Origin: Microlunatus parietis
GTDB taxonomy: Bacteria > Actinomycetota > Actinomycetes > Propionibacteriales > Propionibacteriaceae
NCBI RefSeq assembly: GCF_013407955.1
Contig: NZ_JACCBU010000001.1
Span: 5,642,001-5,706,000, forward strand
DNA length: 64,000 bases
Reading direction: 5' to 3'
The notes beneath the pieces are model-generated. The model was not told the DNA's origin and searched no databases. It worked only from the letters and a program-made list of their open reading frames with translations. The translations under genes and the position numbers were made by a program. Positions 51,064 through 60,371 of this stretch are shown piece by piece (the first letter of the stretch is position 1; each line of letters opens with the position of its first letter).

Positions 51064-51079
51064 GATTAACCGATGAATC
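51064..51079. promoter_or_regulatory. LacI-type operator in front of the lacI-family gene
   Basis: GATTAACCGATGAATC, a near-palindrome with the central CG expected of LacI-family sites, 48 bp before the regulator ATG. It matches the site at 52193-52208 in 13 of 16 positions. A TAGGCT box at 51115-51120, 6 nt before the ATG, suggests a leaderless transcript. Confidence 0.65.
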
Positions 51080-51126: not shown

Positions 51127-52155
51127 ATGGTCGAGCGACACGTGACGTTGAAGGACGTCGCCAAGCGGGCGGGTGTGTCGACGGCGGTCGTGTCGGCGGC
51201 GATCTCCGGCAACGCGACGACCATCCGGATGAGCGAGGCGACGCGCCTCCGGGTGGAGCGGGCGGTCGCCGAGACCGGCTACCGGGTCAACCACGCGGCG
51301 AAGTCACTCAGGATGTCGCGGTCCGGCATCATCGCCGCCGTCGTGCCCAAGATCGCGAACCCGGTCTTCGAGTACGCCATCCGTGGCATCCAGGCCGCGG
51401 CGGAGGAGGCGGGTGACGTGCTGATGCTGACCGATGCACTCTGGATCAAGCACGGCAGTCACCTGATGCAACGGATGGTCGGCACCCGGATGGTGGACGG
51501 GTTCCTGGTCCGGTCGCCACAGCTCGGCTCCGAGACGATCGAGGAGCTGACCAGTCGCACGATCCCGTACGTGATCCTGCAGACTCCCGCCGAGGATGAT
51601 CAGCGGACCAGCGTCTGGGTCGATGATCATGCCGGGATCGCCCTGGCGACCGAACATCTGCTCCGGCTGGGCCATCGCCGGATCGCCCTGATCGGCGGCC
51701 CGGACCAGGCCTCCTACGGCGGTCCTCGCGTCGCCGGCTATCTCGACACGCTGCGATCGGCCGGCTTGAGGCCGGATCCGCGGCTGGTCCACCGGTCCGG
51801 CTTCGACCCGCACGTCGTCGCCCAGTCGGCGATGGCGGTGCTGACCGGGCCCGAGCCGCCGACGGCGATGATCATCGACAACGTGATCGCTGCGCCCGGG
51901 GCTCTGGCGGCGATCGTCGATCTGGGGCTGCGGGTGCCGGAGGATCTCTCGGTCGTGGCCTATCAGGATCTGCCGATTGCCGGTGTCCTCCGGCCGGCAC
52001 CGACGACGATCCGGATGCCGGTCTACGAAGCTGGTGTCCGGGGCTACCGGGCTCTCCGCCAGTTGATCGACGGGAAGCGGGCCAGGTCGGCCCTCGTGAA
52101 GAGCCCACGCCCGAAGTTGATCGACCGCGGATCCACGGCCCCGCCCGCCTCCTGA
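51127..52155 (+). CDS. LacI-family transcriptional regulator
   Basis: 342 residues. HTH 'VTLKDVAKRAGVSTAVVSAA', hinge helix region 'VNHAAKSLRMSRSGIIAAVV' and a periplasmic-binding-protein-like sugar domain ('NPVFEYAIRGIQAAAEEAGD', 'LLRLGHRRIALIGGP'). It should repress the following polysaccharide operon (52.3-60.2 kb) and itself until an oligosaccharide or uronate signal binds, as shown by matching operators before both. Confidence 0.95.
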   Translation: MVERHVTLKDVAKRAGVSTAVVSAAISGNATTIRMSEATRLRVERAVAETGYRVNHAAKSLRMSRSGIIAAVVPKIANPVFEYAIRGIQAAAEEAGDVLMLTDALWIKHGSHLMQRMVGTRMVDGFLVRSPQLGSETIEELTSRTIPYVILQTPAEDDQRTSVWVDDHAGIALATEHLLRLGHRRIALIGGPDQASYGGPRVAGYLDTLRSAGLRPDPRLVHRSGFDPHVVAQSAMAVLTGPEPPTAMIIDNVIAAPGALAAIVDLGLRVPEDLSVVAYQDLPIAGVLRPAPTTIRMPVYEAGVRGYRALRQLIDGKRARSALVKSPRPKLIDRGSTAPPAS

Positions 52156-52192: not shown

Positions 52193-52208
52193 GATTACTC
52201 GATTAATC
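52193..52208. promoter_or_regulatory. LacI-type operator before the polysaccharide operon
   Basis: GATTACTCGATTAATC, 15 of 16 positions consistent with two-fold symmetry around the central CG except one base pair. It overlaps a TTGATT -35 candidate (52191-52196), so bound repressor would block the promoter. The operon start is at 52276. Confidence 0.7.
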
Positions 52209-52275
52209 CGTGTCACTCTAATCCGGACGTTGCTGATCGATGCCCCGTCGGGGGCGAACTGGGGTAGTTCTGCCG

Positions 52276-53634
52276 ATGGTTCATGTCGTGGTGGTCTCTG
52301 GATGGCAGACCGTGAATATCGGGGATGTCGCGCACAGCCCCGGGGTGTTGGAGGCGTTCCGGCGGTTCGCACCGGGCGTTCGGCTCACCCTGTGGGCGCG
52401 CAACATCGACGACGGGGTACGGCAGCTGCTGGCCCGCTACTACCCGGAGGTGGCGCTGGTCGAAGAGCGGGTCGGCGACGACGGGTCGATCACTCCGGCG
52501 CTGGAGCGGCTGTTCGGCGAGGCGGACCTGCTGGTGCACGGTTCCGGCCCGTCGCTGGTCGGCAAGATCGAGACCGCGGCCTGGCGCGCGCACACCCACA
52601 AGCCGTACGGGTTCTTCGGGGTCACCGTCGACCCGCTGCGGCCCTACGACGGGACCCTGGAACGGTCGGCGGCCATGATCGACGCCATCGCCGGCGACCT
52701 GCTGGGCCCACTGGACCGGGAGTTGCTGACCGACGCCGCGTTCGTCTACTGCCGGGACTCGCTGACCCGGAGATTCCTGCAGGGACAGGGAATCGGGGTG
52801 GCCGAGCTCGAGTTCGGCGCGGACGGCACGGTGATCTTCGACGTCGTCGACGATGATCACGGAGCCCCGGTGCTGGCCGAGTACGGGCTGGTCGAGGGTC
52901 AGTTCCTGTGCGCGGTGCCGCGGCTGCGGTACACGCCGTATTACAAGATTCGCGGCTTCGCCCCGCGGGCCGAGGACTGGCGCAAGGAGGCCTACAACGC
53001 CGGCTACGCGGAGTCCGACCTGGACGTGCTGCGGCAGTCGATCATCAGCTGGGTCCGGGCCACCGACCTGCCGGCGTTGATCGTGCCCGAGATGTCGTAC
53101 GCGGTCGAGCTGGCCGAGACCCGGCTGGCCGGGACCTTCCCGGCCGACGTGCGCGACCGGGTGCACGTGCTGCCCCGGTTCTGGGACCTGGCCGAGGCCG
53201 CCGCGGTCTATCGCCGGGCCGCCGCCGTGGTCAGCATGGAGTGCCACTCGCCGTTGATCGCACTGGCCGAGGGCGTTCCGTCGCTCTACCTGCGTCAGCC
53301 GACGGACACGATCAAGGGCCAGATGTATCACGACCTCGGGCTGTCCGAGTCGATCATCGAGTTGACCGACGCCGCGGCGGGGGAGGCGGTCGAGCGGGTG
53401 GCCAAGATCGCCTCCGATCTTCCGGCCGCGCGGGACGCCATGGCCCGCTCGCGGATCGCGGCCTACGAAGGCCTGCGGCACCACGTCGAGTTCGCGGTCG
53501 GCCGGGTTACGGCCCTTCGACAGGCTCAGGGCACGGAGGGGCAGGCTCAGGGCACGGAGGGGCAGGCTCAGGGCACGGAGGGGCAGGCTCGGGGCACGGG
53601 TGCTGCGGGGGAGCGGGGCGCTGACGCACCGTGA
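52276..53634 (+). CDS. Polysaccharide pyruvyl transferase-family protein
   Basis: 452 residues. The N-terminal 'GWQTVNIGDVAHSPGVLEAF' (GDxxH-type start), 'ADLLVHGSGPSLVG' and the C-terminal 'AAAVVSMECHSPLIALAEGV' (R/S..H-P...A) fit PF04230, GT-B-like enzymes that add ketal pyruvate to sugars. Pyruvylation is a biosynthetic step, yet this is the first gene of a degradative operon, so the true reaction may differ. The last 35 residues are low-complexity, encoded by a tandem DNA repeat. No ribosome site is obvious. The end overlaps the permease start. Confidence 0.75.
   Translation: MVHVVVVSGWQTVNIGDVAHSPGVLEAFRRFAPGVRLTLWARNIDDGVRQLLARYYPEVALVEERVGDDGSITPALERLFGEADLLVHGSGPSLVGKIETAAWRAHTHKPYGFFGVTVDPLRPYDGTLERSAAMIDAIAGDLLGPLDRELLTDAAFVYCRDSLTRRFLQGQGIGVAELEFGADGTVIFDVVDDDHGAPVLAEYGLVEGQFLCAVPRLRYTPYYKIRGFAPRAEDWRKEAYNAGYAESDLDVLRQSIISWVRATDLPALIVPEMSYAVELAETRLAGTFPADVRDRVHVLPRFWDLAEAAAVYRRAAAVVSMECHSPLIALAEGVPSLYLRQPTDTIKGQMYHDLGLSESIIELTDAAAGEAVERVAKIASDLPAARDAMARSRIAAYEGLRHHVEFAVGRVTALRQAQGTEGQAQGTEGQAQGTEGQARGTGAAGERGADAP
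53513..53604. repeat. Palindromic REP-like element with 21-bp tandem expansion inside a gene end
   Basis: CCCTTCGACAGGCTCAGGG (53513-53531) is a familiar dispersed element of GC-rich bacteria, whose antisense translation 'LSLSKG' turns up in many spurious proteins. From 53521 a 21-bp unit repeats exactly three times (53521-53541, 53542-53562, 53563-53583) plus a degenerate fourth, encoding QAQGTEG repeats at the C-terminus of the pyruvyl transferase-like protein. Confidence 0.8.
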
Positions 53635-54611
53635 TCGACGTCCAGTCCCGCCCCGCACCGTCGCGGGCGGCACCGTCTCCGAAGACCTCCCCTGGTCTTC
53701 GGCAGCGCCTGGCCGTTCGCTGGCGACGGGATCGGGTGTTGCTGCTGCTGGCGGTGCCGGGCGTCGTGGTGCTGCTGATGTTCCACTACCTGCCGCTGCT
53801 CGGCAACGTGATCGCGTTCCAGGATTACCAGCCGTTCCTCGGCATCGGCAACAGCCCGTTCGTCGGGTTCGAGAACTTCGCGGTGATCATCAACGGAGAC
53901 CCGGAGTTCCTCAACGCGCTGGCCAACACGTTGATCATCACGCTGATCCAGGTCGTGTTCGTCTTCCCGCTGCCGATCGCGTTCGCGCTGATCTTGAATT
54001 CGCTGCTCAGTGAACGGCTGAAGCGGCTGACCCAGTCGGTGCTCTACCTGCCGCACTTCCTGTCCTGGGTGATCGTGGTGGCGCTGTTCCAGCAGATGCT
54101 CGGCAACGGCGGCATGCTGAACACCTGGCTGCGCAGCGCCGACTTCGAGACGTTGCAGATCATCGGGGTGCCGGAGCTGTTCAAGCTGATGATCACGTCG
54201 CAGGTGATCTGGAAGGACACCGGCTGGTCGACGATCATCTTCCTGGCCGCGCTGTCCCGGGTCGATCTCAACCTGTACGAGGCGGCGGCGATCGACCGGG
54301 CCGGCGCCTGGCGGCAGATGTGGCATGTCACGCTGCCGGCGATCCGGCCGGTGATCGTCCTGCTGCTGATCCTCCGGCTCGGTGACGCGCTGAGCGTCGG
54401 CTTCGAGCAGATCATCCTGCAGCAGGGACCGGTCGGCATCCAGGCCAGCGAGGTGCTGGACACCTACGTCTACAACAACGGCATCATCGGCGGCGACTGG
54501 GGCGTCTCGGCGGCCGTCGGCCTGGTCAAGGGAGTGGTCGGCGTGATCCTGGTGCTCGGCGCCAACAAGGTGGCCCATGCGCTGGGCGAGCGAGGGGTGT
54601 ACTCGAAATGA
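53631..54611 (+). CDS. Sugar ABC transporter permease, LplB type
   Basis: 326 residues with six membrane helices. 'FHYLPLLGNVIAFQDYQPFL' and the EAA loop 'EAAAIDRAGAWRQMWHVTLP' are typical of LplB/CUT1 permeases that import oligosaccharides from large polymers. GTG at 53631 overlaps the previous stop. Works with the YtcP-type permease and the lipoprotein that follow. No ATPase is encoded in the operon; such systems usually share an MsmX-like ATPase encoded elsewhere. Confidence 0.93.
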   Translation: MIDVQSRPAPSRAAPSPKTSPGLRQRLAVRWRRDRVLLLLAVPGVVVLLMFHYLPLLGNVIAFQDYQPFLGIGNSPFVGFENFAVIINGDPEFLNALANTLIITLIQVVFVFPLPIAFALILNSLLSERLKRLTQSVLYLPHFLSWVIVVALFQQMLGNGGMLNTWLRSADFETLQIIGVPELFKLMITSQVIWKDTGWSTIIFLAALSRVDLNLYEAAAIDRAGAWRQMWHVTLPAIRPVIVLLLILRLGDALSVGFEQIILQQGPVGIQASEVLDTYVYNNGIIGGDWGVSAAVGLVKGVVGVILVLGANKVAHALGERGVYSK

Positions 54612-55510
54612 GCAACTGGCGAGACACCCGGCCGGTCTGGATGGGCCGTCCCTCGATCCTGGCCCGGGCCGGCCGGGGGATCGTGCTCGGCCTCGCCTGC
54701 CTGGCGGTGATCGTGCCGTTCGTCGCGGTGATCATGACCAGCATCGCGTCCCAGCGGGAGGTGAGCGCCGCCGGCGGGTTCGTCCTGTTCACCACGGATC
54801 CGACACTGGCCGCCTACCGGGCGGTGCTGTCCGGCGGCGTGGTCACCCGCGCCCTATTCGTGTCGATCGGCGTCACGGTGGTCGGGACCATCCTGTCGGT
54901 GGTCTGCACGATCATGCTCGCGTACGCGCTGTCGAGGCCGGGAACGCTGCTGCACAAGCCGATTCTGCTGCTGACCCTGTTCACGCTGCTGTTCAGCCCG
55001 GGCATGATCCCGATGTATCTGATCGTCCGGCAGCTCGGCCTGATCGACAATCTTGCCGCGCTGATCCTGCCCGTGCTGATCAACGCGTTCAACGTGATCG
55101 TCATGCGGTCGTTCTTCCTCGAACTGCCCGGCGAACTGATCGAATCGGCCAAGATCGACGGCGCCGGCGAGCTGCGCATCCTCACCACGATCGTGGTGCC
55201 GCTGTCCAAGGCGGTGATCGCCGTGGTCGGCCTGTTCTACGCGGTGGCGTACTGGAACGCGTTCTTCTCGGCGCTGCTCTACCTGCCGTCGCCGGAGAAG
55301 TGGCCGCTGCAACTGGTGCTGCGCACGTTCGTCGTCAACCAGACCCCGCTCGGCACCGACGAACTCGCCGTCGGGGCCGAGACGATGCCGCCGCAGACCT
55401 CGATCCAGATGGCGATCCTGGTGATCTCCATCGTCCCGATCCTGATCGTCTATCCGTTCATCCAGAAGCACTTCAGCAAGGGCCTGCTGATCGGCGCCGT
55501 GAAGGGATAG
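54608..55510 (+). CDS. Sugar ABC transporter permease, YtcP/LplC type
   Basis: 300 residues, six membrane helices, EAA loop 'ESAKIDGAGELRILTTIVVP' and the conserved 'YWNAFFSALLYLPSPEKWPL' of YtcP relatives. ATG overlaps the preceding stop (ATGA at 54608). Partner of the LplB-type permease. Confidence 0.93.
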   Translation: MSNWRDTRPVWMGRPSILARAGRGIVLGLACLAVIVPFVAVIMTSIASQREVSAAGGFVLFTTDPTLAAYRAVLSGGVVTRALFVSIGVTVVGTILSVVCTIMLAYALSRPGTLLHKPILLLTLFTLLFSPGMIPMYLIVRQLGLIDNLAALILPVLINAFNVIVMRSFFLELPGELIESAKIDGAGELRILTTIVVPLSKAVIAVVGLFYAVAYWNAFFSALLYLPSPEKWPLQLVLRTFVVNQTPLGTDELAVGAETMPPQTSIQMAILVISIVPILIVYPFIQKHFSKGLLIGAVKG

Positions 55511-55547
55511 CAGCGCCCGACTCTCTTCAATGACGAAAGGAAACACC

Positions 55548-57167
55548 ATGGAGACACTGACTCGGCGGAGTCTGATCATGGGCGCCTCAGCGGCCGCCGT
55601 GATCGGCGGCGCCGCGACTCTGACCGGCTGCGGCACCTCGGGCGGCGAGAACACCGACGCCCGGCGCGTCGGCGACGGCGAGTTGCCGACGTTCGCCGAG
55701 GCCGCCGGCGTTAAGCCCGACCTGCCCAGCGGCTACCCGGGCGGCATGCACGGGTTCTTCAGCTACCCGGCCGAACCAACGGCTCCGGTGGAGCCGCCGC
55801 TGTCGGGCGGCAAGATCACGGCGCTGACGTACACCTTCGATCCGGTCGCCCCCGGCCTGGCCGAGAATCCCCTGTGGCAGAAGGTGAATCAGGGTCTCGG
55901 CGCCGAACTGGACATCACCTACGCACCGTCGGCCGATTACCGGCAGCGGTTCGCCACCACGATCGCCGGCGGCGACCTGCCCGACCTGGTGACGATCTAC
56001 GGTTCGGTGCAGCAGTTGCCGGGGCTGCTCAGGTCACAGTTCACCGACCTCAGCGAGCATCTGGCCGGCGATGCGATCAAGGACTACCCGAACCTCGCCG
56101 GGCTCGCCACCGAGTCCTGGCGGGAGACCGTGATCGAGGGGTCGATCTGGGGCATCCCGATCGCGCGGCCGCCGATCGGCGGCGCGATGTTCGTCCGCAA
56201 GGACCTCCTGGACCAGCAGGGGCTCGCCGTACAGCCGAAGGACTTCGCGGAGTTCAAGGAACTGCTGATCGCCCTGACCGACGAGCGCAACTCGCGCTGG
56301 GCGTGCGGCGATCCGGCCGGCGTGCTCGGCCTGATCACCTCGATGCTCGGCATCCCGTCGCTGTGGATCGAGGAGGGCGGGAAGTTCACCGCCAACATCG
56401 AGACCGAACAGTACGCGAAGGCGCTGGCCGACGCACGCGGCCTGGTCGAGGCCGGGGTCTTCCATCCGGACGGGATGACCGCGACGAACAACCAGCGCAA
56501 CGACTGGTTCACCGCCGGCCGCACCCCGCTGGTGCAGGGCGGATTCGTCGGCTACAGCAAGTACGAGATGTGGGGCGCCGAGGTGCCGGGCTTCGAGCTG
56601 GCGACCATGCTCCCCGTCGGGTACGACAGCTCGACCGAGCCGGTGCACAACCGCGGCACCGTGATGCAGGCGATGACGGTGATCAAGAAGTCCGATCCGG
56701 CCCGGGTCAAGGAGCTGCTGAAGGCGCTGGACTGGCTGGCCTCGCCGTTCGGCTCGTCGGAATACCTGACCCGGAAGTTCGGCATCGAGGGCGAGACGTA
56801 TGTGCTCGAGGGGACGGACCCGATCTTGAACTCGCGGGGTCAGAACCTCAAGCTCGTGCCGTTCGGCTACATCTCCGACGGTCCGCAGGTGATCTACGAC
56901 CCGGGCCAGCGGCGGATCGCGGAGGCGCGTTTCGCCTACCAGGAGAAGGCGCTGGCGATGACCCTGCCGGATCCGACGATCGGCCTCTACTCGGAGACCG
57001 AGGCGACCAAGACCGCCCAGATCGGCAAGGCGCTCGAAGATCACCGCACGGAGATCCTGATCGGCCGGAAGCCCTTGGACAGCTGGACCGAGGCCGTGTC
57101 CAGCTGGCGCAAGGCCGGCGGCGACCAGATCCGCGAGGACTACCAGACCGCGTTCGCGGCCAAGTGA
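55548..57167 (+). CDS. Extracellular sugar-binding lipoprotein (SBP family 1, LipO type)
   Basis: 539 residues. ATG at 55548 has AAAGGAAA upstream; the in-frame ATG at 55530 lacks a site. The N-terminus has a twin-arginine motif ('LTRRSLIMGAS') and a lipobox 'TLTGCG' with Cys near residue 28, so it is a Tat-exported lipoprotein. The large domain matches the LipO/oligosaccharide-binding type used with LplB/YtcP permeases ('GDLPDLVTIYGSVQQLPGL'). Confidence 0.9.
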   Translation: METLTRRSLIMGASAAAVIGGAATLTGCGTSGGENTDARRVGDGELPTFAEAAGVKPDLPSGYPGGMHGFFSYPAEPTAPVEPPLSGGKITALTYTFDPVAPGLAENPLWQKVNQGLGAELDITYAPSADYRQRFATTIAGGDLPDLVTIYGSVQQLPGLLRSQFTDLSEHLAGDAIKDYPNLAGLATESWRETVIEGSIWGIPIARPPIGGAMFVRKDLLDQQGLAVQPKDFAEFKELLIALTDERNSRWACGDPAGVLGLITSMLGIPSLWIEEGGKFTANIETEQYAKALADARGLVEAGVFHPDGMTATNNQRNDWFTAGRTPLVQGGFVGYSKYEMWGAEVPGFELATMLPVGYDSSTEPVHNRGTVMQAMTVIKKSDPARVKELLKALDWLASPFGSSEYLTRKFGIEGETYVLEGTDPILNSRGQNLKLVPFGYISDGPQVIYDPGQRRIAEARFAYQEKALAMTLPDPTIGLYSETEATKTAQIGKALEDHRTEILIGRKPLDSWTEAVSSWRKAGGDQIREDYQTAFAAK

Positions 57168-57205
57168 CCTGATCCGAACCTGATCTTCATCGACGAGGAG
57201 TTCCC

Positions 57206-59182
57206 ATGACCCTGCCTGCCCGGAGACGGAAGCGGCTCGTGATCACCGGCCTGGTGCTCGCCGTCCTGCTGCCCATGATCATCGGTGGTGCGCCGAAGGC
57301 GGCCGCCGAACCACCACAGCTGCATCCGCCGGACGACATCGTCGCCGGGCTGCGGCCCGGCCACCCACGGCTGATGGTCGACGCCGCCGGGCTGGCCCGG
57401 ATCGAGCAGCAGGTCACGGGCTCCGAACTGGCGGCCGGCTTGCAGCAGCAGTTGATCACCGAGGCCGACCGGATGGTCACGCTGCCGGTGTCGGTCTACG
57501 AGTTCCCGGACGGCCGGACGCTGCTGCAGGTGGCCCGCGAGGTGCAGCGGCGATCGGTGTTCCTGTCGCTGACGTACCGGCTGACCGGTGACGAACGCTA
57601 CGCGGCCCGGGCCTACCAGGAGCTCGCGGCCGTCGCGGAGTTCCCGGACTGGAACCCGGAGAGCTGGCTCTCGGTCGCCGAGCTGCTGTACGCGTACGCC
57701 GTCGGTTACGACTGGCTCTACGAGTATCTGGGCGATGATCAACGCGCCGTACTGCGCAACGCCATGATCGAGTTCGGGCTGAACGAGGCCAAGATCGCCT
57801 ACGACACGTCGAACTCCTGGACCCGGTCGACGACCAACTGGAACATCGTCTGCAACAGCGGCGTGATCATGGCTGCGCTGGCCATCGGCGACGAGGTCCC
57901 CGAGTTGGCCAATGAGCTGCTGCACCGAGCGTACGACTCGCTGCCGGTCGCGCTGGCCGAATACGGGCCGGACGGCGGCTATCCGGAAGGCACCACCTAC
58001 TGGGGTTATGCGACCCGGTTGCTGGTCTCGGCGCTCTCCTCGTTGGAGACGTCGATCGGTGACGACTACGGCATCTCCGATGCGCCCGGACTCGATGTGA
58101 CGGTGGACTTCGGCATGCAGCTGACCGGCTCGAGCGGGCAGCTGTTCAACTACGCCGACTCGTTGACCCAGGTCAGGACCCGGGGCGGCTCGGCGTCGAC
58201 CTACTGGCTGGCCCATCGTTACAACCAACCCGGCTACGCCTGGTGGGCCGATGAGGGCGCCTCCCGAGTCCTGCCCAGCGCACTGCCGCCGCTGCATCTG
58301 ATGTGGCTGGGCATGATCGATCCCGAGGATCCTGGAGCCTCCGGATTGCCACTGGACAAGGTGTTCCAGCGTGCCCACGTGCAGACGATGCGTAGCGGTT
58401 GGGATCCGGGCGCGACGTTCGTCGGCTTCCGAAGCGGCGACAACGCCGCGAACCACGGTGATCTTGACATGGGCACGTTCGTCCTCGATGCCCTCGGGGT
58501 GCGATGGGCGACGGAGCTCGGCCGGGACGACTACGGCCTGCCCGGCTACTTCGACACCGGTCAGGACGGGCTGCGCTGGACGTACTACCGCAAACGTGCC
58601 GAGGGGCAGAACACGCTGGTCCTGAATCCCGGGACGGCACCCGACCAGGCCCTCGGGGCCACCGGGAGGGTCGTCCGTACCGATGGGAATGCGGGGACGG
58701 CGTTCTCGGTCGCGGACCTGTCCGAGGCGTACGCCGATCGTGGCGTGATCAGGTGGCGGCGCGGCATCGCCATGGTCGACGGGCGATCACGCGTCGTGGT
58801 TCAGGACGAGGCGGCCGGCAGGGCTCGGATCACGCCGTACTGGTTCATGCACACATCCGCGGCGATCACCCTCGCCGCGGACGGCAGGACCGCGAAGCTG
58901 ACCCTGAACGGCCGGCAACTGCAGGCCCGGCTGCTCGACGGACCGGCCGGCGCCAAGTTCTCGATCATGGACGCGAAGCCGCTGCCGACCTCGCCGAACC
59001 CGTCCGGCCAGAACCCGAACGCCGGCACCCGCAAGCTCGTGGTGACCGCCGACCCGGCGCGTCACTTCCGCCTGTCGGTGCTGCTGGAACCACTGCCGAC
59101 CGGGCAGCCGGCCGATCCGCCGGCGGTGACACCGCTGGGCGGCTGGAACCTGCAATCGCTCGGCCCCCAGCCGAAGCCGTAG
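57206..59182 (+). CDS. Heparinase II/III-family polysaccharide lyase
   Basis: 658 residues. Basic signal peptide ending 'PKAAA', an alpha/alpha toroid ('RPGHPRLMVDAAGLARIEQQ', 'YEYLGDDQRAVLRNAMIEFG', 'TTNWNIVCNSGVIMAALAIG', 'PDGGYPEGTTYWGYATRLLV') and a beta-sandwich heparinase II/III domain ('FRSGDNAANHGDLDMGTFVL', 'RWATELGRDDYGLPGYF'). The NWN, Tyr and 'NHGDLD' His positions match catalytic regions of PL15/PL17/PL21-like enzymes. Cleaves uronate-containing polymers outside the cell. Confidence 0.9.
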   Translation: MTLPARRRKRLVITGLVLAVLLPMIIGGAPKAAAEPPQLHPPDDIVAGLRPGHPRLMVDAAGLARIEQQVTGSELAAGLQQQLITEADRMVTLPVSVYEFPDGRTLLQVAREVQRRSVFLSLTYRLTGDERYAARAYQELAAVAEFPDWNPESWLSVAELLYAYAVGYDWLYEYLGDDQRAVLRNAMIEFGLNEAKIAYDTSNSWTRSTTNWNIVCNSGVIMAALAIGDEVPELANELLHRAYDSLPVALAEYGPDGGYPEGTTYWGYATRLLVSALSSLETSIGDDYGISDAPGLDVTVDFGMQLTGSSGQLFNYADSLTQVRTRGGSASTYWLAHRYNQPGYAWWADEGASRVLPSALPPLHLMWLGMIDPEDPGASGLPLDKVFQRAHVQTMRSGWDPGATFVGFRSGDNAANHGDLDMGTFVLDALGVRWATELGRDDYGLPGYFDTGQDGLRWTYYRKRAEGQNTLVLNPGTAPDQALGATGRVVRTDGNAGTAFSVADLSEAYADRGVIRWRRGIAMVDGRSRVVVQDEAAGRARITPYWFMHTSAAITLAADGRTAKLTLNGRQLQARLLDGPAGAKFSIMDAKPLPTSPNPSGQNPNAGTRKLVVTADPARHFRLSVLLEPLPTGQPADPPAVTPLGGWNLQSLGPQPKP

Positions 59183-59236
59183 ATCCTCCACGACTCGGGG
59201 AAACAGGAAGCATTTCCACCAAAGAAAGGGATGGCC

Positions 59237-60220
59237 ATGACGCAGATCTCGGCCCCTGGTCGACTTGCTCGAAGGACGATGGTTCTCACCGCGGCGGTAA
59301 TCCTGAGCGCCTCGGTGGCTGTCGCTGCAGTGACGAATCCACTACCCGCCGGTGCGGCAGAGCCGGTCCGCAGTTACGCGGCGGGCATCGCGGGGGAGAC
59401 CTGGACGATCGAAGATCCCGAGGACTGCAGTGCGGAGATCGGCGCTGGCGGCAACCTCAGGGAGGGCGAGGACTTCTTTCAGGGCAAGTGTCAGGGAGCG
59501 GGGGAAGCACCCCGGATCACCGGGACCTCGGAGGCGCGGGCCTTGACGTTCCGCACCGACAAGGACTTCAGGTACCCGGGCGCCATCATCGAAGACCCCG
59601 CCAAGAACACCTGGCAGGACGCTGCCGGAAACACCCTCCGGGACCGCTCGGAACTGGCAACGGGATGGGACCTGCCGTTCCACACCGACGTGTGGGTCGG
59701 GTTCGACGTTCGCATCCCTGCGGGCGTCGATGACGTGACGGGTAGCGGGGCGTACGTGCTGCAGCTATGGCAGTGCACCGCGAACCCGATCGGCGGCGTG
59801 CGCATCCAGTCCGGCGCCGGCAACGGGCACAACCTCCAGTTCGTACGCCGTGGCGAGGAGCCGGGCATGGAATTGGAGTACAACAAGGCGATGGCGACCA
59901 AGAGCGTCGGGACCGACGAGTGGCACTCCTTCGTGATCAAGTACAACGTCGAGCCCTATCACGAGGGCGCGCCCAAGGGGCGTATCGCGGTCTGGCACAG
60001 GAGAGTGGGAGCGACCACCGTCGAGACGAAGCTCTTCGAGCGGGAGGAGTACTTCGGCTACGCGACGCGCTCCAGATGCACGGGCGAGTTCAGGAACGAG
60101 TTCAAGATCAAGTTCGGCCTGTACAAGGACTACCAGCCGGGCGCGACGTTCCGCTCCGACTTCCGGGACCTGAGGATCGGCGCCAGCAAGGCGGCGGTGC
60201 AGCCCTACAACCGCGGTTGA
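59237..60220 (+). CDS. Secreted polysaccharide lyase, heparin-lyase-I-like jelly roll
   Basis: 327 residues. ATG at 59237 (AAAGGG 6 nt upstream) rather than the ATG at 59231. Signal peptide ending 'LPAGAA'. The jelly-roll pattern 'DVWVGFDVRIPAG', 'VLQLWQCTANPIGGVRIQSG', 'EWHSFVIKYNVEPYHEGAPK' and '..EFKIKFGLYKDYQPG' fits PF14099 (PL13/PL20-like lyases). Last gene of the LacI-controlled operon; with the heparinase it would digest a uronic-acid polymer before uptake. Confidence 0.78.
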   Translation: MTQISAPGRLARRTMVLTAAVILSASVAVAAVTNPLPAGAAEPVRSYAAGIAGETWTIEDPEDCSAEIGAGGNLREGEDFFQGKCQGAGEAPRITGTSEARALTFRTDKDFRYPGAIIEDPAKNTWQDAAGNTLRDRSELATGWDLPFHTDVWVGFDVRIPAGVDDVTGSGAYVLQLWQCTANPIGGVRIQSGAGNGHNLQFVRRGEEPGMELEYNKAMATKSVGTDEWHSFVIKYNVEPYHEGAPKGRIAVWHRRVGATTVETKLFEREEYFGYATRSRCTGEFRNEFKIKFGLYKDYQPGATFRSDFRDLRIGASKAAVQPYNRG

Positions 60221-60371
60221 GCTCGTGCGCTATCCTGTGATTCGGCGCTGGAGGGCGCCGCCGGGTCCGCGGGCAGGGGACAGCCCACCTCCGATCTTCG
60301 CGAAGCCGTGCCAGTTGATCACAGCTTCCTTGGCCCTGTTCGCGGACCGCAGGTCCGGAGAGGAAGAGCCC

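Follow-up and report, generated by a model that had tools for sequence, protein, structure and literature searches.

A PF04230 clade with an altered active site in lyase and importer operons of soil actinobacteria, and its possible role in uronate breakdown

Inspection of a 64,000-nucleotide stretch of the Microlunatus parietis genome (NCBI RefSeq assembly GCF_013407955.1, contig NZ_JACCBU010000001.1, positions 5,642,001 to 5,706,000 of the forward strand; here called the window) revealed a tightly packed operon at positions 52276 to 60220. Its first gene encodes a member of PF04230, a family generally annotated as polysaccharide pyruvyl transferase. A first-pass annotation had described a lyase and import operon headed by this gene, and all genes that it named were confirmed, as were their order and strand. 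The PF04230 gene (52276 to 53634, forward strand, as are all genes of the operon) codes for 452 amino acids and is followed by genes for an LplB-like ATP-binding cassette (ABC) permease (53631 to 54611; PF00528), a YtcP/MalG-like ABC permease (54608 to 55510; PF00528), a solute-binding protein that is probably a lipoprotein (55530 to 57167; PF01547/PF13416), a PL35-like lyase of the heparinase II/III type (57206 to 59182; PF07940 plus DUF4962), and a PF14099-like polysaccharide lyase (59231 to 60220). Genes overlap by 4 bp at 53631/53634 and 54608/54611, the remaining gaps measure 19, 38, and 48 bp, and the next gene after the operon, at 60225, encodes an acetyltransferase. The start at 52276 is consistent with the Kribbella-type and M. 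speluncae orthologues; the Pfam scan of the window took the gene as 52240 to 53634.

Over long alignments, the heparinase II/III-type protein resembles solved PL35 glycosaminoglycan lyases (PDB 8khv, 1.2e-86, residues 48 to 647; 9o3q, named PL35 chondroitinase, 1.6e-67, residues 52 to 592; also 8khw). The product of 59231 to 60220 just misses the curated cut-off of PF14099 (28.8 versus 29.9 bits), which its orthologues in loci L054 (32.4) and L050 (30.8) pass. On inspection, the N termini of both lyases are signal-like. The PF04230 protein starts directly with the first strand of its fold, has no evident signal peptide, and is the sole non-secreted enzyme among the genes from 52276 to 60220.

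Directly upstream lies a gene for a LacI-family regulator (51127 to 52155, forward strand; PF00356 and PF13377), which was unmentioned in the first-pass annotation and appears to belong to the same system; in the loci of Microlunatus and Kribbella, a LacI homologue immediately precedes the PF04230 gene. A near-palindrome, GATTA-N2-CG-N3-AATC, drawn from upstream regions, marks two predicted LacI operators, neither assigned to a strand. One, upstream of lacI (51064 to 51079, GATTAACCGATGAATC), matches the pattern perfectly; the other lies upstream of the PF04230 gene (52193 to 52208, GATTACTCGATTAATC), and the same motif is found before orthologues. These are the only two perfect sites in the 7.24-Mb window genome, and at two mismatches or fewer the window contains four matches (the two sites, on both strands) versus 0.08 expected. 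The motif also occurs upstream of the orthologue in L054, L050, L051, L053, and L037 and, altered at a single base, in L055 and L056; among the upstream regions inspected, it was not seen before PF04230 relatives in more distant loci. The simplest reading is a predicted local repressor that controls its own gene and the operon, with the PF04230 gene first; operator binding and a response to imported sugar are putative. A third operator-like site, with one mismatch, beside clpP/clpX genes was taken as chance.

The window protein matches PF04230 at 44.6 bits (curated cut-off, 25.3) and no other Pfam family, including PF07470, the family of the glycoside hydrolases GH88/GH105. With its relatives it forms a clade of 47 sequences set against 49 control PF04230 proteins (Shimodaira-Hasegawa-like approximate likelihood ratio test, 100; stem, 1.53) in a tree from a quick search with no bootstrap and with long branches among the controls. 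The 47-sequence alignment omits eight of the 55 family proteins, namely, L052, L064, L069, L076, L078, L090, and L098, which are near-copies or partial gene calls that all have the Glu motif described below, and L100, a fragment without the site. Clade and control profiles align with a probability of 99.5. PDB sequence searches with the window protein or the clade alignment returned no convincing relative; the link to Pvg1p (PDB 5ax7) was obtained solely via the control profile, and 5ax7 is absent among the 50 structural matches listed for the model of the window protein. This AlphaFold2 model (predicted local distance difference test, 94.5; predicted template modeling score, 0.92) has a two-domain GT-B fold, and its best PDB matches include UDP-N-acetylglucosamine (UDP-GlcNAc) 2-epimerases (3ot5_C; VIA Z, 25.0; root mean square deviation, 4.7; 347 residues aligned). 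Since a control PF04230 model gave matches of the same kind in Foldseek, the fold is uninformative on the specific function, and the epimerase likeness was dropped as specific evidence.

Reference residues for the active site were taken from CsaB of Paenibacillus alvei and Pvg1p of Schizosaccharomyces pombe, as given in two reports: an RDS arginine (CsaB R148, Pvg1p R217) and, at the phosphoenolpyruvate (PEP) site, a histidine (H308, H339), a second arginine (R306, R337), and a lysine (K328, K361) (PMC10435577, PMC4872226). According to the same reports, R306/R337 is a PEP contact by docking that is unproven by mutation, R306 not being among the listed mutants and Pvg1p R337A having failed to express (PMC10435577, PMC4872226). 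In the clade, the RDS arginine (R160) and the PEP-site histidine (H324) are kept in 47 of 47 members, each in the same column of the profile alignment as its control counterpart, and the aspartate of the N-x-G-D motif (D17) in all 43 sequences having a residue there; the PEP-site lysine is probably kept (K347, 47/47). Wherever a residue is present, N14, G16, D17, R160, E272, H324, and K347 are invariant across these 47 sequences from six phyla. The position of CsaB R306, two residues before the histidine, is occupied in the clade by Glu (41), Asp (5), or His (1) and never by Arg (n = 47), whereas the control proteins have Arg (46), Ser (2), or Pro (1) and neither Glu nor Asp (n = 49). Pvg1p and WbbZ carry R-L-H at this site, and the other PF04230 gene of the window genome has the ordinary R-x-H motif. 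The comparison with known transferases, which the first-pass annotation had recommended, revealed that, across the clade, the Arg at the predicted PEP contact has given way to Glu/Asp. Such an altered active site suggests a digestive reaction different from pyruvylation.

Full relatives were found in 13 of 391 genomes of the order of Microlunatus (16 matched, including three weak partial C-terminal matches that were not counted), and a genome of the window's own genus carries an 88% identical orthologue. A scan of named genomes yielded 51 loci, mainly from Actinomycetota; L037 brings the total to 52, of which 40 are actinobacterial. An LplB/YtcP-type permease pair lies near the PF04230 gene in 33 of the 40, covering 14 of 19 genus labels, and a LacI gene in 34. 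Lyases of four recognised kinds occur in 22, and a lyase or a protein of a cluster named c6 in 30, with the permeases present every time. These locus counts are not independent, with Kribbella, Nonomuraea, and Jiangella over-represented as close relatives. Ten loci are without importer, lyase, or both (L037, L055, L056, L060, L065, L083, L092, L094, L097, and L099), of which L060, L065, and L083 retain permeases and L055 is a 4.4-kb contig.

In contrast, at the same threshold none of 19 control PF04230 loci contained a homologue of any protein in the query set, which comprised importer, lyase, and related proteins. These controls were drawn from the same phylum only, high-scoring genes first; three of the 19 were counted without a called control gene, two are under 10 kb, and L119 and L219 were dropped since no frame matched the control profile. 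Neighbours of the clade (113 proteins from 20 chosen loci) include BPD_transp_1 (31), LacI (16), and SBP_bac_1 (11), and no glycosyltransferase is among the 25 families listed of 85. Control neighbours (86 of 87 scanned) include Glycos_transf_1 (9), SLH (8), MurJ (5), and Glycos_transf_2 (4). The neighbour tallies show 25 families each, of 108, 85, and 124, and proteins shorter than 80 or longer than 1,000 amino acids were excluded from both the clade and the control set. The first-pass annotation had suspected a non-biosynthetic role, to be abandoned if members were found mainly in capsule or exopolysaccharide clusters. The context survey supports this suspicion: in actinobacteria the subgroup does not lie mainly in such clusters, and the neighbours of the controls include glycosyltransferases, flippases, and S-layer proteins.

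The gene order of the window is repeated in L054, from Microlunatus speluncae, and in four Kribbella loci (L050 to L053), where a PF05426 protein replaces the heparinase, so the arrangement exceeds chance. The Kribbella loci hold both this PF05426 protein and a PF14099-like lyase; the PDB entries nearest to the former are named alginate lyase (3nfv, 8bdq) and presumably belong to PL38. Proteins of a further cluster, c5, were found in 17 loci and comprise 1,100 to 1,240 amino acids; the scanned members (L050, L061) match Hepar_II_III_N/C, and that of L061 is closest to heparinase III. In L061, L063, L064, L066, L067, L069, L072, and L098, the strand run consists of the PF04230 gene, two permease genes, a binding protein gene, and one gene for a signal-bearing heparinase-type protein (plus one additional gene in L072), and, as predicted from these runs, no cytosolic enzyme other than the PF04230 protein is evident in the unit. 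Locus genes were called with a codon-usage script, which makes lengths and starts approximate, and signal peptides in relatives by a crude hydrophobicity rule that is negative for many binding proteins. Across the order, a PL35 lyase was found in seven of 381 genomes, of which four (G000, G041, G366, and G083) also have the PF04230 gene; a comparison of PL35 clusters with and without the gene was set aside, the sample of seven genomes being too small to use.

The clade also occurs in Bacteroidota, Planctomycetota, Verrucomicrobiota, Acidobacteriota (a Bryobacteraceae metagenome-assembled genome [MAG] and a fragment), and a Spirochaetes MAG. In Chitinophaga, the PF04230 gene comes after a SusC/SusD pair, and sampling of the order of this genus gave a relative in one of 248 genomes, the starting genome itself. 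In a Tannerella MAG, the gene is preceded by a PF05426 gene and a weak PF14099 match (20.1 bits, below the cut-off). Two sulfatases and three LamG-type proteins are among the families listed for non-actinobacterial neighbours (62 of 107 scanned, three of these from the actinobacterial locus L092). Planctomycetota have members in up to 22 of 246 genomes, with several matches weak or partial, and their role may differ from the actinobacterial one. Four planctomycete loci (L179, L181, L184, and L185) have common conserved, apparently unrelated surroundings. Furthermore, a Niabella MAG carries a tandem pair of PF04230 genes, both from the clade (L085:8791-11167), near SusD, GH5, alpha-galactosidase, and LamG-type genes.

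Polysaccharide lyases leave a 4,5-unsaturated uronate, which is normally removed by GH88/GH105 enzymes via hydration. At an E value of ≤1e-5, PF07470 had no match in 21 of 33 carrier genomes, including those of the eight loci with the short strand run. In the window genome, the sole PF07470 match over the cut-off is a GH76 protein, and kduI was identified (NF002091, 316 bits; cut-off, 250), directly followed by a short-chain dehydrogenase gene.

That a pyruvyltransferase relative has been recruited to operons for cutting and importing acidic polysaccharides in a range of soil actinobacteria is well supported; outside Actinomycetota, the context is weak. The actinobacterial members of the clade are very likely catabolic, and their reaction is probably one other than PEP-dependent pyruvylation. 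The doubt about pyruvylation voiced in the first-pass annotation was apt; its own suggestions, handling of pyruvylated sugars or capping of an oligosaccharide, gained no direct support and are weighed as rivals below. As the best explanation of the whole, we favour, at a rough probability of 0.4, a cytosolic, substrate-induced catabolic enzyme that descends from ketal-pyruvyltransferases and hydrates unsaturated uronates. The sequences themselves show how the operon is built, that the clade exists and carries the residue change, where the operator-like sites lie, what surrounds the gene in relatives, and that the genome has kduI; from these we infer repression and induction, cellular site of action, substrate, and reaction as follows. 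Secreted lyases would cleave a uronate polymer and produce 4,5-unsaturated uronate ends, the ABC importer would take up the unsaturated oligosaccharides, and these would relieve the LacI repressor and be acted on by the PF04230-derived enzyme in the cytosol. There, the unsaturated end, C4=C5(O-)-COO-, would occupy the ancestral site of PEP, CH2=C(O-P)-COO-; the clade-specific Glu/Asp or the conserved His might protonate the enol ether, with water added at C5; and 5-keto-4-deoxyuronate would be released to KduI/KduD. Hydration is proposed on three grounds: the pathway from import to KduI has a gap, the window operon encodes a single cytosolic enzyme, and PEP is chemically like the unsaturated uronate, both having a carboxylate on an enol carbon. 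That the window enzyme hydrates the unsaturated end of an imported uronate oligosaccharide is possible, although somewhat doubtful. More tentative still is a new class of unsaturated-uronyl hydrolase, which would free the lyase/importer operons of many actinobacteria and some Bacteroidota from the need for GH88/GH105.

Several observations weigh against this proposal. The unsaturated-uronate step is not always missing, since 12 of the 33 carrier genomes have PF07470 proteins and two Microbacterium loci encode one within the strand run of the PF04230 gene (assigned by Pfam in L074 and by clustering in L076). The pathway gap was judged by PF07470 alone, and exolytic lyases or PL22 elsewhere in the genomes lay outside the search. 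Also, kduI of the window genome is far from the operon, in a cluster with its own importer. The argument from an only cytosolic enzyme is true for the window and some groups, not for all: by the crude test, no signal peptide is evident in the PF05426 protein of the Kribbella runs, in the PL35-like protein of L077, L078, L080, and L082, or in an SGNH esterase of the Microbacterium/Agromyces group. In the profile alignment, the active-site K347 is shifted by two residues from the column that holds control K306. Outside Actinomycetota, there are no more than hints of an association with lyases and importers: a homologue of the query set was found in two of 12 named loci (GH88-like in L085, PF05426 in L087) and in none of 16 planctomycete stretches (L176 to L191).

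By likelihood, hydration is followed by other GT-B sugar chemistry, removal of pyruvate ketals, and true pyruvylation. Sugar chemistry of the first kind, such as phosphorolysis, epimerisation, or glycosyl transfer acting on imported oligosaccharides, seems unlikely. The best named structural matches of the model, UDP-GlcNAc 2-epimerases such as 3ot5_C, would suit such chemistry, but the control model matches them alike, which reflects the fold, and the RDS arginine and the histidine, present in 47 of 47 members, would be unexpected in an enzyme of nucleotide-sugar chemistry.

Hydrolysis of the ketals of 4,6-pyruvylated sugars on imported oligosaccharides, reversing the ancestor's chemistry with water for PEP/phosphate, would fit the catabolic context and the active-site change, and the lost predicted PEP contact would suit a phosphate-free reaction. 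Pyruvylated exopolysaccharides do exist, and xanthan lyase splits off pyruvylated mannose, according to a review (PMC6801904). However, the lyases nearby (PL35-like, heparinase III-like, PF05426, and PF14099-like) indicate uronate polymers, and a neutral-sugar hydrolase is absent from the window operon. Such uronate polymers are not known to be pyruvylated, and we consider ketal removal rather improbable.

A similarly low probability attaches to a protein that is still a PEP-dependent ketal-pyruvyltransferase and caps or traps imported or stored oligosaccharide during growth on the polymer. The score above the curated PF04230 cut-off, the complete conservation of the RDS arginine, the histidine, and the N-x-G-D aspartate (47/47, 47/47, and 43/43), and the control-like GT-B fold are all in keeping with it, and the need for the replaced arginine is unproven, the CsaB residue having been docked and Pvg1p R337A not being expressible (PMC10435577, PMC4872226). 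Against this stand the Glu/Asp for Arg in 46 of 47 members, a charge reversal at the predicted PEP contact, and the lack of glycosyltransferases among the 25 neighbour families listed of 85; moreover, the purpose of spending PEP on a food sugar is not evident. A protein without catalysis or with a regulatory task, for example, one that senses a ligand for the importer operon, could explain the loss of one predicted PEP contact and the LacI gene in 34 of 40 actinobacterial loci, but is the least probable since the seven residues invariant across six phyla (N14 to K347) form the pattern of an enzyme.

With CsaB and Pvg1p, the clade has in common the family, the GT-B fold, the N-x-G-D motif, the RDS arginine, the PEP-site histidine, and probably the lysine. 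It differs in having Glu/Asp for R306/R337, and its actinobacterial genes lie in lyase/importer operons and not among glycosyltransferase and cell-surface genes; the planctomycete genes have no clear context either way. If the hydration proposal is right, the window protein would take a place like that of the unsaturated glucuronyl hydrolases of GH88/GH105, carrying out in the cytosol the step that leads from lyase products to KduI, with a different fold and family (PF04230 only), GH88/GH105 enzymes being alpha/alpha toroids. Firmicutes LplB-YtcP-LipO operons for uronate oligosaccharides are coupled to secreted lyases and use GH88/GH105 hydrolases. The window operon is like them in importer type and in the coupling to secreted lyases and begins with a PF04230-derived gene instead. 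No report of PF04230 in lyase or uptake clusters was found in the open-licence papers searched, and nothing of use was found there on depyruvylases or the GH88/GH105 mechanism. One paper places a PF04230 gene among glycosyltransferases (PMC11286577), and the number of characterised members is given as three in a 2019 review (PMC6801904).

A clade that combines a diagnostic residue change with catabolic operons suggests that the general annotation as polysaccharide pyruvyl transferase assigns its members a wrong role. Hydration, if true, would close the gap in the pathway of genomes that have lyases and lack GH88/GH105, and it would offer a clear example of a PEP site redirected to another enol ether; uronate-polymer breakdown in soil actinobacteria would become directly testable with one purified protein.

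Further features were noted at the locus and in the relatives. The c6 cluster, a candidate new lyase or hydrolase family, covers nine loci (e.g., L058:3586-5619, L073:146-2398, and L095:8019-9992) with proteins of about 660 to 800 amino acids. In seven of the nine, the gene lies directly upstream of the PF04230 gene, and five of these seven proteins have a signal peptide by the crude test; the L058 protein has no Pfam family and that of L073 a weak GH127 match only. Genes for mandelate-racemase/enolase-type proteins were seen near the PF04230 gene (L055:2636-3760, L065:8865-9986, L060, L071, and L083) and beside kduI of the window genome (L261:10054-11178). The window genome also encodes a second PL35-like protein of 1,105 amino acids (G000:C1:935779-937560, L211), with neither an importer nor a PF04230 gene directly beside it. 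Between 51000 and 61000, scanning for sigma-70 promoters and terminators detected nothing promoter-like and, on the other strand, two terminator-like sites, with no excess over shuffles. Long antisense frames opposite operon genes (52213 to 53673, reverse strand, and others) are usual at high G+C content and were not accepted as genes. Finally, Tandem Repeats Finder detected 3.8 copies of a 21-bp tandem repeat (53521 to 53599, forward strand), which codes for a C-terminal Q-A-Q-G-T-E-G tail of the PF04230 protein, outside the conserved enzyme. Since five match rows in relatives' genomes cover this tail alone (and were not counted as relatives), the repeat looks like a dispersed DNA repeat.

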